Assembly: GCA_002104985.1 (NCBI GenBank)
Contig: MCGO01000008.1
Location: 620,001-684,000, forward strand
DNA: 64,000 nt
Reading direction: 5' to 3'
From: Rhizoclosmatium globosum
Taxonomy: Eukaryota > Chytridiomycota > Chytridiomycetes > Chytridiales > Chytriomycetaceae
Of the stretch, positions 48,154 through 52,249 are shown piece by piece. Every line of letters starts with the position of its first letter. Position 1 is the stretch's first letter. The position numbers and the translations under genes are program-made. Below the pieces are notes generated by a model. That model saw nothing but the letters and a program-made list of their open reading frames with translations. It did no database searches and had not been told where the DNA came from.

Positions 48154-49758
48154 CATCCCCATGGATTGTCCAACACGTCATCAATCGTGTGAAACTGTGC
48201 AACTGGCTGCGAAACAGAAACAGGAACTGCCAGCACTTCTTCTTCTTCTTCTTCATCCTCATCAACTCCCCATCCACCACTCAGAACTTGATCTTCTCTC
48301 AAAGCCTTCTGCTCTCTCTTTTCAATAACCTCATTTCCTTTCTCGACTTCTTGTTGTGCCGGCTCAGAAATATCAATCAATCCACCTCCCAAGGCAAGAC
48401 TCTTCAAATCCCCCATCACGTCTTCATGCGTAGATTGAACTCCTTGTAGGGCAAGTTCCAACAAGCTTCCCATTCCACTACCTTGTCCTACTTCAGTCTC
48501 TGGCTTCACAAGGTCCAATAAATCGGATAAGTTGTCCTGTTTCTTGACTGGAGTAGGATTGGCATTGGTGACTGCGGTAAATTGAAGAGGGTGAATATCG
48601 AGTGGCTTTTCTGAGGAAAGGGTTTCGGGTGGGGGAGAGTCCATAAATAAGTCTTGTTGTTGTTGTTGGATGGATTGTGTAGCACTTGTGGATGCAATTG
48701 GCTCGTTGAATGAAAATGGGTCGTCCGAGGTGGGCGTGTTAGGAAATGGATTCACAGAAACTGGTGGAGAGCTTCGGGTTGGTGTTGTAATATCTGCTGA
48801 TTTTGTTGTGGTTTGAGGAGCCGGTTCTGCAGCTGCTGCAATCGTGGGGACTACAATAGTTTCGTTTGAATTGATGGAGTTGATTCAGATACAACAGATG
48901 CGACTTGTTTTGAATCTGATGGAATACCAGATTTGGGTTCAACTGAGTCCACTTTGATCGATGATTTTGATGATTCATTTACGGACCTTTCTGAATTAGA
49001 AACGGAGTTGTTTGTAACTTCAGATGCAATCGAAGTTGATACAGGAGCAGCAGTGAAATCAGCACCAAAGTCGATTCCAAGCAAATCGTCCACGGAATGG
49101 GTTGGAGCAACGACTGCTCTCGATGAAATAGGTCTTGAATGGGAGGGAGGTGGAGGGAGTGCGAAAGCCTAGGTTTAATTGGGAGGTTTAAGGGGGTGGA
49201 GAATAGGTTTCAGATTTGTCATGGTTACAGTACACAACTTCAAAGAGAGGGGGTGAACATACCGGCGCACTAGGCTTTGTAATAAACGAGTCAGCCATAA
49301 CAACGCCCAGCTTCTTTGGAGCCGCCGTCACAGTAACACCGTCCACAACCACTGGCACATCCCTGAACCAGGTTTGTGAACATACTTCTCCTTCATGAAT
49401 TCAAGCAGTCTCGTATCGTCGTTCTGGCGGGAATCGGAAACAGGCGTGGATCGTGAGTGGCAAGGTAACGGCGCTTTGCGACATCGTTTCCGGCAGCGGC
49501 AAGGGCGGATACCTCCATCAGCGAGAAGTCGAAGCTGAAAGAGACTTGATTCGAAGTTGAGAATGCGGAGAAGGCCTGCGCATCGACCGCAGACAAAGGT
49601 TGATGTGTTCAGGCAGACCATTGACGGCATTCGGGCACCGCAGTCAGCGCATGTCTTGTTTAACAGTTGGTTAGGTGTTATTCAATAGAGGTAGAGTGGG
49701 TTACCTTGTTCTCCTCCCGGTTGATGACGCTCTTGAGAAGGACAAGGTTGGACGACAT
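48154..49758 (-). CDS. AGFG-type ArfGAP protein
   Basis: Predicted GTPase-activating protein for Arf in vesicle traffic. The start MSSNLVLLKSVINREENK at 49758 joins over an intron (about 49,657-49,705) to TCADCGARMPSMVCLNTSTFVCGRCAG, the CxxCx16CxxC zinc finger of ArfGAPs with the FVC-CAG form seen in AGFG/HRB proteins. Then follow RIKSLSAST, SLMEVSALAAAGNDVAKRRYL and EFMKEKYVH, all standard ArfGAP helices. In place of the usual catalytic Arg the motif here reads LLRILN/LRIKS, so activity is uncertain. The C-terminus is long, disordered and Ser/Gln/Asp/Pro-rich with an acidic cluster (DEDEEEEEE) and ends VLDNPWG at 48154-48156. Introns near 49,200-49,262 and 48,840. Frame breaks near 49,560, 49,530, 49,440 and 49,370. 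Confidence 0.8.
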
Positions 49759-49896: not shown

Positions 49897-52045
49897 ATGG
49901 TCTCAGCCTGGCTCTTCAACGACGACAAGTCTGATCAACGCAACCCACACCAATTCAGCCCAAACCAGCCAATCTCTCTTGCTGAGCTTGCTGAGGTTCG
50001 CTTTAGTCTTGTTCCGAATGTGTGGTATACTAGGTGCTGATCAAACAATCATCCAGTTCGGAGTGCTCTACTTCTTCATCGACGCCGCACGCGGAGAAGC
50101 CTACTACCAGAGCGAAATCGACAAGTTCGCTAAGGCAAGAAACTACAAAAACAGAGACATTGTACGTGGATCCTTCCCCTTTAACCCCCTGAATCTGCTA
50201 GCACCCAACACACGCCAAGCAACCACGTTTTTCTCCTTCTCATTCAAACCCACTTTCAACTTCCAATACTCATATTTACATGTCCTAGATCAACATCCAC
50301 AAGGACACCTTCCCAAACTACGACGAGAAGATCAAAATCTTCTTTGAGGAGCATTTGCACGAGGATGAGGAGATCCGTTTCGTTTTGGACGGAAGCGGTT
50401 ACTTTGACGTTCGTGACAAGAAGGACAGATGGATTCGTATTGCTGTTAAGCAGGGAGACTTGTTGATCTTGGTGAGTCTCCTTCAACAGGGCTTGTACTT
50501 CAAATATGACGTATACTGACGTCACTGCCCTCCAACATCCAGCCAGCTGGTATCTACCACCGTTTCACTCTCGACACCAACAACTACATCAAGCCAATGC
50601 GTCTCTTCAAGGAAGTCCCCAATGGACTCCAATCAACCGTGACCTCCCAGACACAGACGCGAACGCCCACCGTAAGGAGTACATCCAACAACTCAAGTCT
50701 GTCGGAAAGATCCATACCTATCCAAACAACCCACGCGTTGCTAAGGCGCTTGTTGCGGCTGAATTCAACAAGGTTCATGTTGAGGTTGTGGAAATTGAGG
50801 TTGGAAAGACCAACACTAGTGAGGAGTATTTGCACAAGTTCCCTACTGGTGATATTCCTGCTTTTGAGACGCTCGATGGATTCTACTTGACGGGTGGGAA
50901 TGCTATTGCTCAGTACAGTTGAGTTGTTTCTTGACCTTGATTTTAAGCTTACCCTTTCTTCATTTTTAAGTCGCTTCCGCTGTTCCTGGATCAAAGCTTT
51001 GCGGAACTTCTACCAAGGAAGCCGCATTGATCCAACAGTTCATCGCTGTCGTTGACACGAGCTTGCTCCAGCTCAGGCTGCTTGGCTTTTCCCAATCCTC
51101 GGATGGACTCCAAAGAACCCAGACGTGTGTTTGTCACCCCCTTTGAATTCTCCCGATTTCTGTGGTTTTAACAGCTTCTTTTTAAAATCAGGCCACCAAG
51201 AAGGCTATCGACGACACCAAGCGCGTCTTGACTCTCCTCAACACCCACCTCCGCGACCACACCTACCTCGTCGGCGAAGACATCACTTTGGCTGATATCA
51301 CCGTCTCGTTGACGCTCCTAACTTCTACCGTATGGTCTTTGACGCCAAGTTCCGTGCCGCTTTCAAGAACGTTGACCGTTGGTTCTTGACTCTCGTGAAC
51401 CAGCCTGAATTCGTGAACGTGATTGGAAAGGTTGAGTTGCTTGGTGCTGCTGCTGCCACTCCTGTGCTGCTAAGCCTGGTGAGGAGCCATTACCACCAAT
51501 ATGGCTGATACTAATAGTTCACTTTTCACAGCGACTCCAGCTGCCGCTGTCTCCCCGCAAAGAAGGCGCCCCGCTCCAGCCCCAGCCAAAAAGGCCGCCG
51601 ATGAAGACGAAGACTTTGATCTCTTCGCCGACGATGACGAAGAGGAAGACGCTGAAAAGGCCGCCCTCGTTGCGAAGCGTCTTGAAGAATACAACGCCAA
51701 AAAAGCGCTCAAGCCAAAGACGATCGCCAAGTCCATGGTTATTCTTGACGTGAAGCCATGGGACGATGAAACTGACATGAAGGCTCTTGAAGCGGATGTT
51801 CGTTCTATTGCCATGGATGGATTGGTTTGGGGTACTTCCAAGCTTGTTGCTATTGGATACGGAATCAAGAAGCTTCAGATTACTGCTGTTGTTGAGGATG
51901 ACAAGGTAATGATGGTGCTTTTGGCATTTTTAATGTGGAGTTCTGATTTCTTACATAGGTTGGAGTTGATGATTTGTCTGACCAGATCACTGGATTTGAG
52001 GACTACGTTCAGTCCGTTGATGTTGCTTCGTTCAACAAGTTGTAA
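49897..52045 (+). CDS. Fusion: acireductone dioxygenase + eEF1B-gamma GST region + eEF1B-beta GEF domain
   Basis: Eight exons (49897-49995, 50057-50161, 50289-50471, 50543-50917, 50971-51124, 51192-51478, 51532-51905, 51959-52045) give about 555 residues. Residues 1-180 are a full acireductone dioxygenase (methionine salvage) with metal ligands in HLHEDEE and PAGIYHRF, and C-terminal WTPINRD...[10 protein letters not shown]. Exon 4 runs straight on, without stop or ATG, into [19 protein letters not shown], the start of the eEF1B-gamma GST-N fold, then GST-C ([28 protein letters not shown]). After an acidic linker ([17 protein letters not shown]) comes the eEF1B-beta nucleotide-exchange domain: [45 protein letters not shown], and ends VASFNKL. 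Four single bases are missing (near 50,617, 51,056, 51,318, 51,464), none at the junction. Confidence 0.85.
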
Positions 52046-52249
52046 GAAGGGTTACAGTGAAGAGAATAAACAGCATTTGTGTCCTGCTATGGTACACATT
52101 TAAACTTTATCATGATTTGTTCTCATACTTGATGACTTATAGCAAATTTAAAAGGTATCGCATTGATAAACTAGTTCAACGTCTTCATATATAACTGTCC
52201 AGTACTTTCGTGTTGGTGTTTATTTTGTTGTACCATCTGAATTTACAGA

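Follow-up and report, generated by a model that had tools for sequence, protein, structure and literature searches.

Positions 49,897 to 52,045 of the window, the 64,000-nucleotide stretch of Rhizoclosmatium globosum DNA that was analysed, hold one eight-exon gene on the forward strand, in which an acireductone dioxygenase (ARD) is followed by a GST fold from eEF1Bgamma, an acidic linker and the nucleotide-exchange (GEF) domain of eEF1Bbeta. The exons were placed by word mapping of the Rhizoclosmatium sp. JEL0117 protein P0001 onto the window DNA. The gene runs from an ATG at 49,897 to a TAA at 52,043-52,045, exactly the limits given by an earlier sequence-only reading, and its seven introns, 53 to 127 bases long, are all of the GT-AG type (7/7). 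The ARD N-terminus (MVSAWLF...LAELAE, P0001 residues 1-33) is encoded by exon 1 (49,897-49,995), with a GT-AG intron after it, and the domain continues through exon 2 (50,057-50,161; FGVLYFF...KNRDI, residues 34-68) into exon 3 (50,289-50,471; residues 69-129), which carries the metal-binding core with HLHEDEE and matches Pfam ARD (E=4.2e-26). Exon 4 (50,543-50,917; residues 130-155 and 157-254) holds both the end of the ARD (YHRF, WTPINR) and the N-terminal half of an eEF1Bgamma-type GST (YPNNPRV...NAIAQY), GST_N being matched on 50,623-50,919 (E=2.3e-10). The middle part of the GST lies in exon 5 (50,971-51,124; residues 256-278 and 284-306) and its C-terminal domain in exon 6 (51,192-51,478; residues 307-349 and 350-398), the first part of which matches GST_C (E=3.9e-7), the second part being without a Pfam match. 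An Ala/Pro/Lys linker, the acidic region and the first part of the GEF domain (EF-1_beta_acid, EF1_GNE) follow in exon 7 (51,532-51,905; residues 403-411 and 417-528), and exon 8 (51,959-52,045; residues 529-556) encodes the GEF end (...SFNKL) and the TAA stop codon. The sole AATAAA/ATTAAA hexamer between 49,897 and about 52,200 is found at 52,065-52,070. Four of the five window pieces thus have Pfam matches (ARD; GST_N; GST_C; EF-1_beta_acid with EF1_GNE), the GST end piece (64 aa) having none, and the metal ligands that had been read in the dioxygenase, HLHEDEE and YHRF, are present in the window frames. A DNA search of the genome assembly (56.9 Mb, 420 contigs) found the whole fusion gene in a single copy.

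The assembled sequence of the gene contains at least three clear one-base slips, at about 50,621 (exon 4), between 51,042 and 51,055 (exon 5) and at 51,320 (exon 6), and probably further ones between 51,466 and 51,570. As a result of the first, exon 4 has the ARD body (up to KEVP) in one frame and the stretch from WTPINR into the GST in another, whereas the two are continuous in the relatives. The slips had escaped the sequence-only reading.

Homologues and distribution

The fusion is intact in P0001 of Rhizoclosmatium sp. JEL0117 (556 aa, 98% identity over 100%) and in P0002 of Obelidium mucronatum (559 aa, 76% identity over 100%). These two proteins, together with the Pfam pieces of the window, bear out the proposed three-way fusion of ARD, eEF1Bgamma GST and eEF1Bbeta GEF, and a comparison with relatives, as the sequence-only reading had recommended, shows that it is conserved in other genomes. 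P0003 of Chytriomyces confervae (5 member sequences) combines ARD and GST and ends after the GST, without GEF; the partial proteins P0010 (C. hyalinus) and P0218 (Siphonaria, labelled UNVERIFIED_CONTAM by its source) join ARD to GST across the same junction, and GST and GEF are found in P0004, an incomplete record from R. hyalinum. P0219 of Chytriomyces sp. MP71 is a stand-alone GST of the fusion-GST clade with its own Met and the same end point as P0003.

The first homologue search scored 7996 candidates, of which 562 passed, and a profile search with three fusions scored 7993, of which 1035 passed, the results being the best 120 of 562 and the best 120 of 1035, respectively. In a domain scan of 270 of the 271 collected proteins (P0029 left out), ARD and GST occurred together in five (P0001, P0002, P0003, P0010, P0218), GST and GEF in three (P0001, P0002 and the partial P0004) and all three parts in two. 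Among the matches listed, ARD-GST is thus known from five species of four genera, and the GEF part only from the Rhizoclosmatium and Obelidium fusions; C. confervae and C. hyalinus count almost as one because they are near-identical (99%, tree rows). Even within the family some members depart from the three-way form: the C. confervae fusion has no GEF, and the MP71 GST no ARD. Obelidium, Physocladia, Chytriomyces, Siphonaria, Entophlyctis and Podochytrium, the genera besides Rhizoclosmatium that carry these or the other eEF1B fusions described below and whose lineage was looked up, all belong to the Chytriomycetaceae (6/6).

The ARD/GST junction

The frame of the ARD motif WTPINR continues into YPNNPRV and NAIAQY for 98 codons (50,623-50,916) with 0 stops and 0 ATG, an opening reached in the same frame by 104 of 20,000 base shuffles of this segment. 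The joint itself (L-K-S-V-G-K-I-H-T, 50,692-50,718) contains neither stop nor ATG nor intron. All five junction-crossing records (P0001, P0002, P0003, P0010, P0218) place 32 residues between WTPINR and YPNNPRV, have K, N or Q where canonical gammas have their start Met, and are devoid of Met from the ARD end through the N-terminal half of the GST. The absence of stop and ATG from the junction, as originally noted, therefore holds for the window and for the relatives, and the stop with an ATG near 50,690-50,705, which would have separated two genes, occurs in none of the five records. Downstream of WTPINR, Met does not occur until residue 279 in P0001, 354 in P0002 and 266 in P0003; an internal AUG start cannot yield an intact GST, because Met is absent through the GST N-half, and was rejected. 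A fusion made by splicing was likewise rejected, the joint lying inside exon 4. In both structure models the last ARD helix (168-180 or 171-180) directly abuts the GST strand 182-188, so that ARD and GST appear to be joined without a linker.

Competence and fold of the three parts

Two structure models were computed, the second of which (mean pLDDT 74.4, pTM 0.56) is better for the GEF domain and still weak there. The ARD is a full domain of the MtnD/Adi1 type (PF03079): HLHEDEE and YHRF, which form the three-His one-Glu site of HxHx3E plus a distal His, are kept in 5/5 fusion ARDs, and in the second model the cupin fold matches mouse 1vr3 and 4qgn with TM 0.93. The fusion differs from ordinary ARDs by the addition of about 375 C-terminal residues derived from eEF1B subunits.

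Tree and fold both identify the second part as a gamma-type GST domain. Its fold matches human eEF1Bgamma 5jpo/5dqs, which by their titles are complexes with alpha or delta domains, at TM 0.82-0.87 in the second model and 0.86-0.92 in the first, with 42% identity to 5jpo in the model alignment. Unlike eEF1Bgamma, the fusion has an ARD in front and a GEF domain in place of the EF1G C-terminal domain (PF00647), which Pfam does not list for P0001, P0002 or P0003. It has also lost ESNAI, an example of the ESxAI-type motif that we take to be the glutathione motif of GST: the motif is intact in the five canonical gammas compared and has become TGxNAI in all five rows that reach it (four fusions and P0219). 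Glutathione chemistry is therefore unlikely.

The third part shares with eEF1Bbeta (yeast EFB1; named eEF1Balpha in yeast and animals) the acidic region (PF10587) and the GEF domain (PF00736) up to the last residues. The GEF sequence can be aligned over its whole length with those of human 2n51 and 1b64 and of yeast 1f60 chain B, including the penultimate Lys, presumably the catalytic residue. The acidic region reads FADDDEEE against FGSDNEEE in human delta, the Ser of which is, we assume, a CK2 site. The short GST-C-like N-terminal domain, by which eEF1Bbeta binds gamma, is missing, its place being taken in the three-way fusions by the ARD and a complete gamma-type GST. In the second model a stretch of low confidence (393-442) connects the GEF to the rest of the chain, the GEF's pLDDT is mostly 52-64, and it superposes on 2n51 at only TM 0.47 (rmsd 14.3) in spite of 66% identity; because the model is poor here, the assignment of the GEF fold relies on the alignment.

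Other ARD and eEF1B genes of the genome

A search of the genome found PF00647, and hence canonical eEF1Bgamma, only on contig C361. Canonical eEF1Bbeta is L004 on C377, with the usual N-terminal part (compared by eye with P0228), and a double ARD is encoded by L009/L011 (C399:319.9-321.0 kb), a letter-for-letter identical stretch being found on C185. The separate copies that the sequence-only reading had proposed to look for thus exist, and because of them the fusion is an extra copy and not the sole source of any part. The genome also contains a short GEF gene (L001) with a similar second copy (L002), a gene in which a motif described below precedes the GEF (L003 on C235, hereafter the motif-GEF gene) and a gene for a histidyl-tRNA synthetase fused to GEF (L005, HisRS-GEF).

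Some of these loci have features of their own. In proteins with two ARDs in tandem (L009, P0005-P0009), the metal ligands are kept in 10/10 halves of P0005-P0009. Three introns of the canonical eEF1Bgamma gene (L016, C361:22,379-24,044) hold, as we read them, copies of one element of ~76 bases whose identity to the query copy is 91-100%; C373 has three further copies (83%), and the element is introner-like. L004 seems to adjoin an FYRN/FYRC-type gene, here and in Chytriomyces hyalinus, and P0039 appears to be a gene model in which eEF1Bbeta and such a gene were merged.

History of the parts

The fusion ARDs form one clade (support 99/96), to which the double-ARD proteins of the Chytriomycetaceae do not belong. 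The fusion GSTs and P0219 form a clade (100/100) on a long stem beside the canonical chytrid gammas; the tree fits a position of P0219 inside or outside the fusion GSTs, and a grouping of the fusions alone is not rejected (p=0.602). Together, the two trees suggest that a second, shortened gamma-type GST arose in the Chytriomycetaceae and became joined to an ARD.

The GEF domains group partly by species and not by the part in front of them. The ARD-GST, HisRS and beta GEFs of Obelidium group with the Siphonaria HisRS and the Rhizoclosmatium motif-GEF (99/95), and HisRS and beta GEFs group together in Chytriomyces (97/86) and in Podochytrium (99/95). The Rhizoclosmatium fusion GEF groups with the Chytriomyces/Podochytrium set (96/88), its motif-GEF with Obelidium, and its three others have no resolved position. 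That all HisRS-linked GEFs form a single clade was rejected (AU test, p=0.002); a single clade for the ARD-GST GEFs was not rejected (p=0.159) in a test of three rows, the window row, identical to P0001, being left out. That the five GEF copies of this genome do not group together counts against gene conversion. The fusion GEF differs from the four other copies compared by dN 0.064-0.075 and dS 0.83-1.12. Its longest run of identical codons is 17 with the short GEF gene L001 (reached in 24 of 5000 shuffles) and 13 with the motif-GEF gene L003 (92 of 5000), and three of the ten GEF pairs are at 0.02 or below, these being per-pair values. Such runs are suggestive only: they would fit occasional gene conversion or repeated fusion, and codon bias could contribute.

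GEF domains in other fusions

L005 (C399:83,614-86,868) encodes, on the minus strand (1498-2994), a 498-aa open frame with the C-terminal part of HisRS, an acidic linker and GEF, and the same HisRS-GEF fusion is found in six proteins of relatives (P0038, P0041, P0042, P0044, P0045 and P0048; P0042 is labelled UNVERIFIED_CONTAM). L005 may be the sole HisRS of the genome, because the only other PF13393 match, L022, looks like a GCN2-type HisRS-like domain. A flavin amine-oxidase-type enzyme precedes the GEF in P0040 (Physocladia obscura) and in P0046 and P0122 (Entophlyctis luteolus); it matches Pfam Amino_oxidase, and we read it as UDP-galactopyranose-mutase-like. Metagenome proteins add NDP kinase (PF00334) followed by the eEF1B acidic region and GEF (P0123, P0131, P0143, P0168) and, for the ARD, a combination with a PF01042 (RidA-type) domain (P0047, P0049, P0050, P0054 and others). 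A motif of ~35 aa without Pfam match (FSYESI..QQ.LV..G.RA..RNGGY) occurs twice before the GEF in L003/P0233, at the N-termini of the HisRS-GEF proteins and, weakly, in P0046; a genome search found it in L003 and L005 only. It is possibly a docking module.

Discussion

Since related fungi have conserved this junction, the product looks like a real protein, and we are nearly certain that the ARD, GST and GEF parts form a genuine single-chain fusion. We consider it reasonably probable that this fusion tethers the ARD to the eEF1B/eEF1A elongation complex; judged from sequence, a link between methionine salvage and translation would be the most economical reading. The gene would yield one chain of ~556 aa with an intact ARD, a GST attached without linker, a flexible acidic linker and an intact GEF. 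The GST fold would serve as a scaffold, docking on eEF1B partners like the canonical gamma GST, and the GEF domain would bind and reload eEF1A. In sum, the ARD, whose product KMTB is a precursor of methionine, would be kept at the elongation complex. The GEF is attached covalently in Rhizoclosmatium and Obelidium; in Chytriomyces, with a fusion lacking GEF, the ARD-GST could dock non-covalently on eEF1Bbeta and reach the same end. According to PMC5851275, the N-terminal region of eEF1Bgamma binds other eEF1B subunits, and the likely role of eEF1Bgamma is that of a scaffold.

Four other explanations have to be weighed. The one that fares best, though we find it unlikely, accepts the single-chain fusion and supposes that GST and GEF lend the ARD only oligomerisation, solubility or localisation, with no link to translation. 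This would suit a C. confervae fusion that ends after the GST, the loss of the ESNAI motif and the presence of canonical eEF1B subunits, owing to which the fusion need not serve translation; it sits poorly with a GEF that is conserved to its last residues and whose dN to the four other copies is so low against dS, and with the grouping of the Obelidium fusion GEF with its own beta and HisRS GEFs, which the Rhizoclosmatium fusion GEF does not share. An improbable alternative is that a joint mRNA gives a protein in two pieces, by cleavage or by internal initiation, both of which the sequence-only reading had considered. The canonical gamma N-terminus (MAPIGKI) does start almost exactly at the joint, and in MP71 the GST part is a separate model with its own Met. 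However, (i), Met is absent from WTPINR through the GST N-half in all five records, with 0 ATG in the 98 window codons, so that an internal start would cost the whole N-terminal half of the GST and is disfavoured and, (ii), in both models the ARD helix is predicted to end at 180 and the GST strand to start at 182, with no linker visible for a protease, which speaks against cleavage.

It is very improbable that the window copy once encoded a working fusion and is now decaying as a pseudogene. In favour of decay, at least three single-base slips fall within 2.1 kb, and no clear slip was seen in four other loci of the same genome mapped in the same way (L009, L003, L016 and L005; cross-matches between the internal repeat copies of L009 and L003 were excluded from the count). 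The 98% protein identity to the JEL0117 protein, the seven GT-AG introns and the final stop in place argue otherwise. Moreover, the divergent ArfGap-like gene beside it (49,328-49,681, minus strand), of which only the first part has a Pfam ArfGap match, also seems by eye to change frame, which suggests errors in the local sequence; we provisionally regard the slips as such errors and not as decay. Finally, the chance that an assembly or gene-model artefact merged two neighbours is next to negligible and this was rejected: the slips may betray poor local sequence quality, but the joint lies within one exon without intergenic DNA and is crossed, with the same 32 residues, by the records of five species in four genera, two of them near-identical and one with a contamination label, so that only an error common to these assemblies could still account for it.

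Natural ARD fusions within methionine salvage are known, namely MtnBD (PMC2759508, PMC6302742). MtnBD of Tetrahymena thermophila (PMC2759508; PMC3698126 by its search listing) is likewise a natural ARD-containing fusion, but it joins two steps of one pathway, whereas the chytrid protein joins ARD to parts of the translation elongation machinery; the MtnB dehydratase (PF00596) is absent from the Pfam lists of P0001-P0003. The chytrid HisRS-GEF is closer in that it carries the same acidic linker and GEF module, also C-terminal and in the same genome; it differs by its aminoacyl-tRNA synthetase front part and by having no GST fold. No publication that deals with a fusion of ARD or HisRS to eEF1B, or with a chytrid eEF1B fusion, appeared among the matches listed, which covered titles and abstract openings outside subscription journals and preprints. 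P0001-P0003 are public and named as ARD: the sequences are thus known, and the architecture seems undescribed.

GEF looks like a reusable module in the Chytriomycetaceae, because it is also fused to HisRS and to a flavin enzyme. It is tempting, if on balance doubtful, to speculate that the eEF1B exchange module is a reusable plug that couples ARD-GST, HisRS and the flavin amine-oxidase-type enzyme to eEF1A, that gene conversion within genomes helps to keep the modules alike, and that the ARD version lets elongation sense or feed on methionine salvage; the scattered positions of this genome's own GEF copies in the tree make us slightly less inclined to this view than at first.

In the protein encoded here, an enzyme of methionine salvage and parts of a translation elongation factor are covalently linked, and the link is conserved. 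Together with HisRS-GEF, this protein provides a natural system in which to test whether the supply of amino acids and the charging of tRNAs are physically coupled to the loading of eEF1A. The relatives are named culture strains, so a direct test should be feasible.
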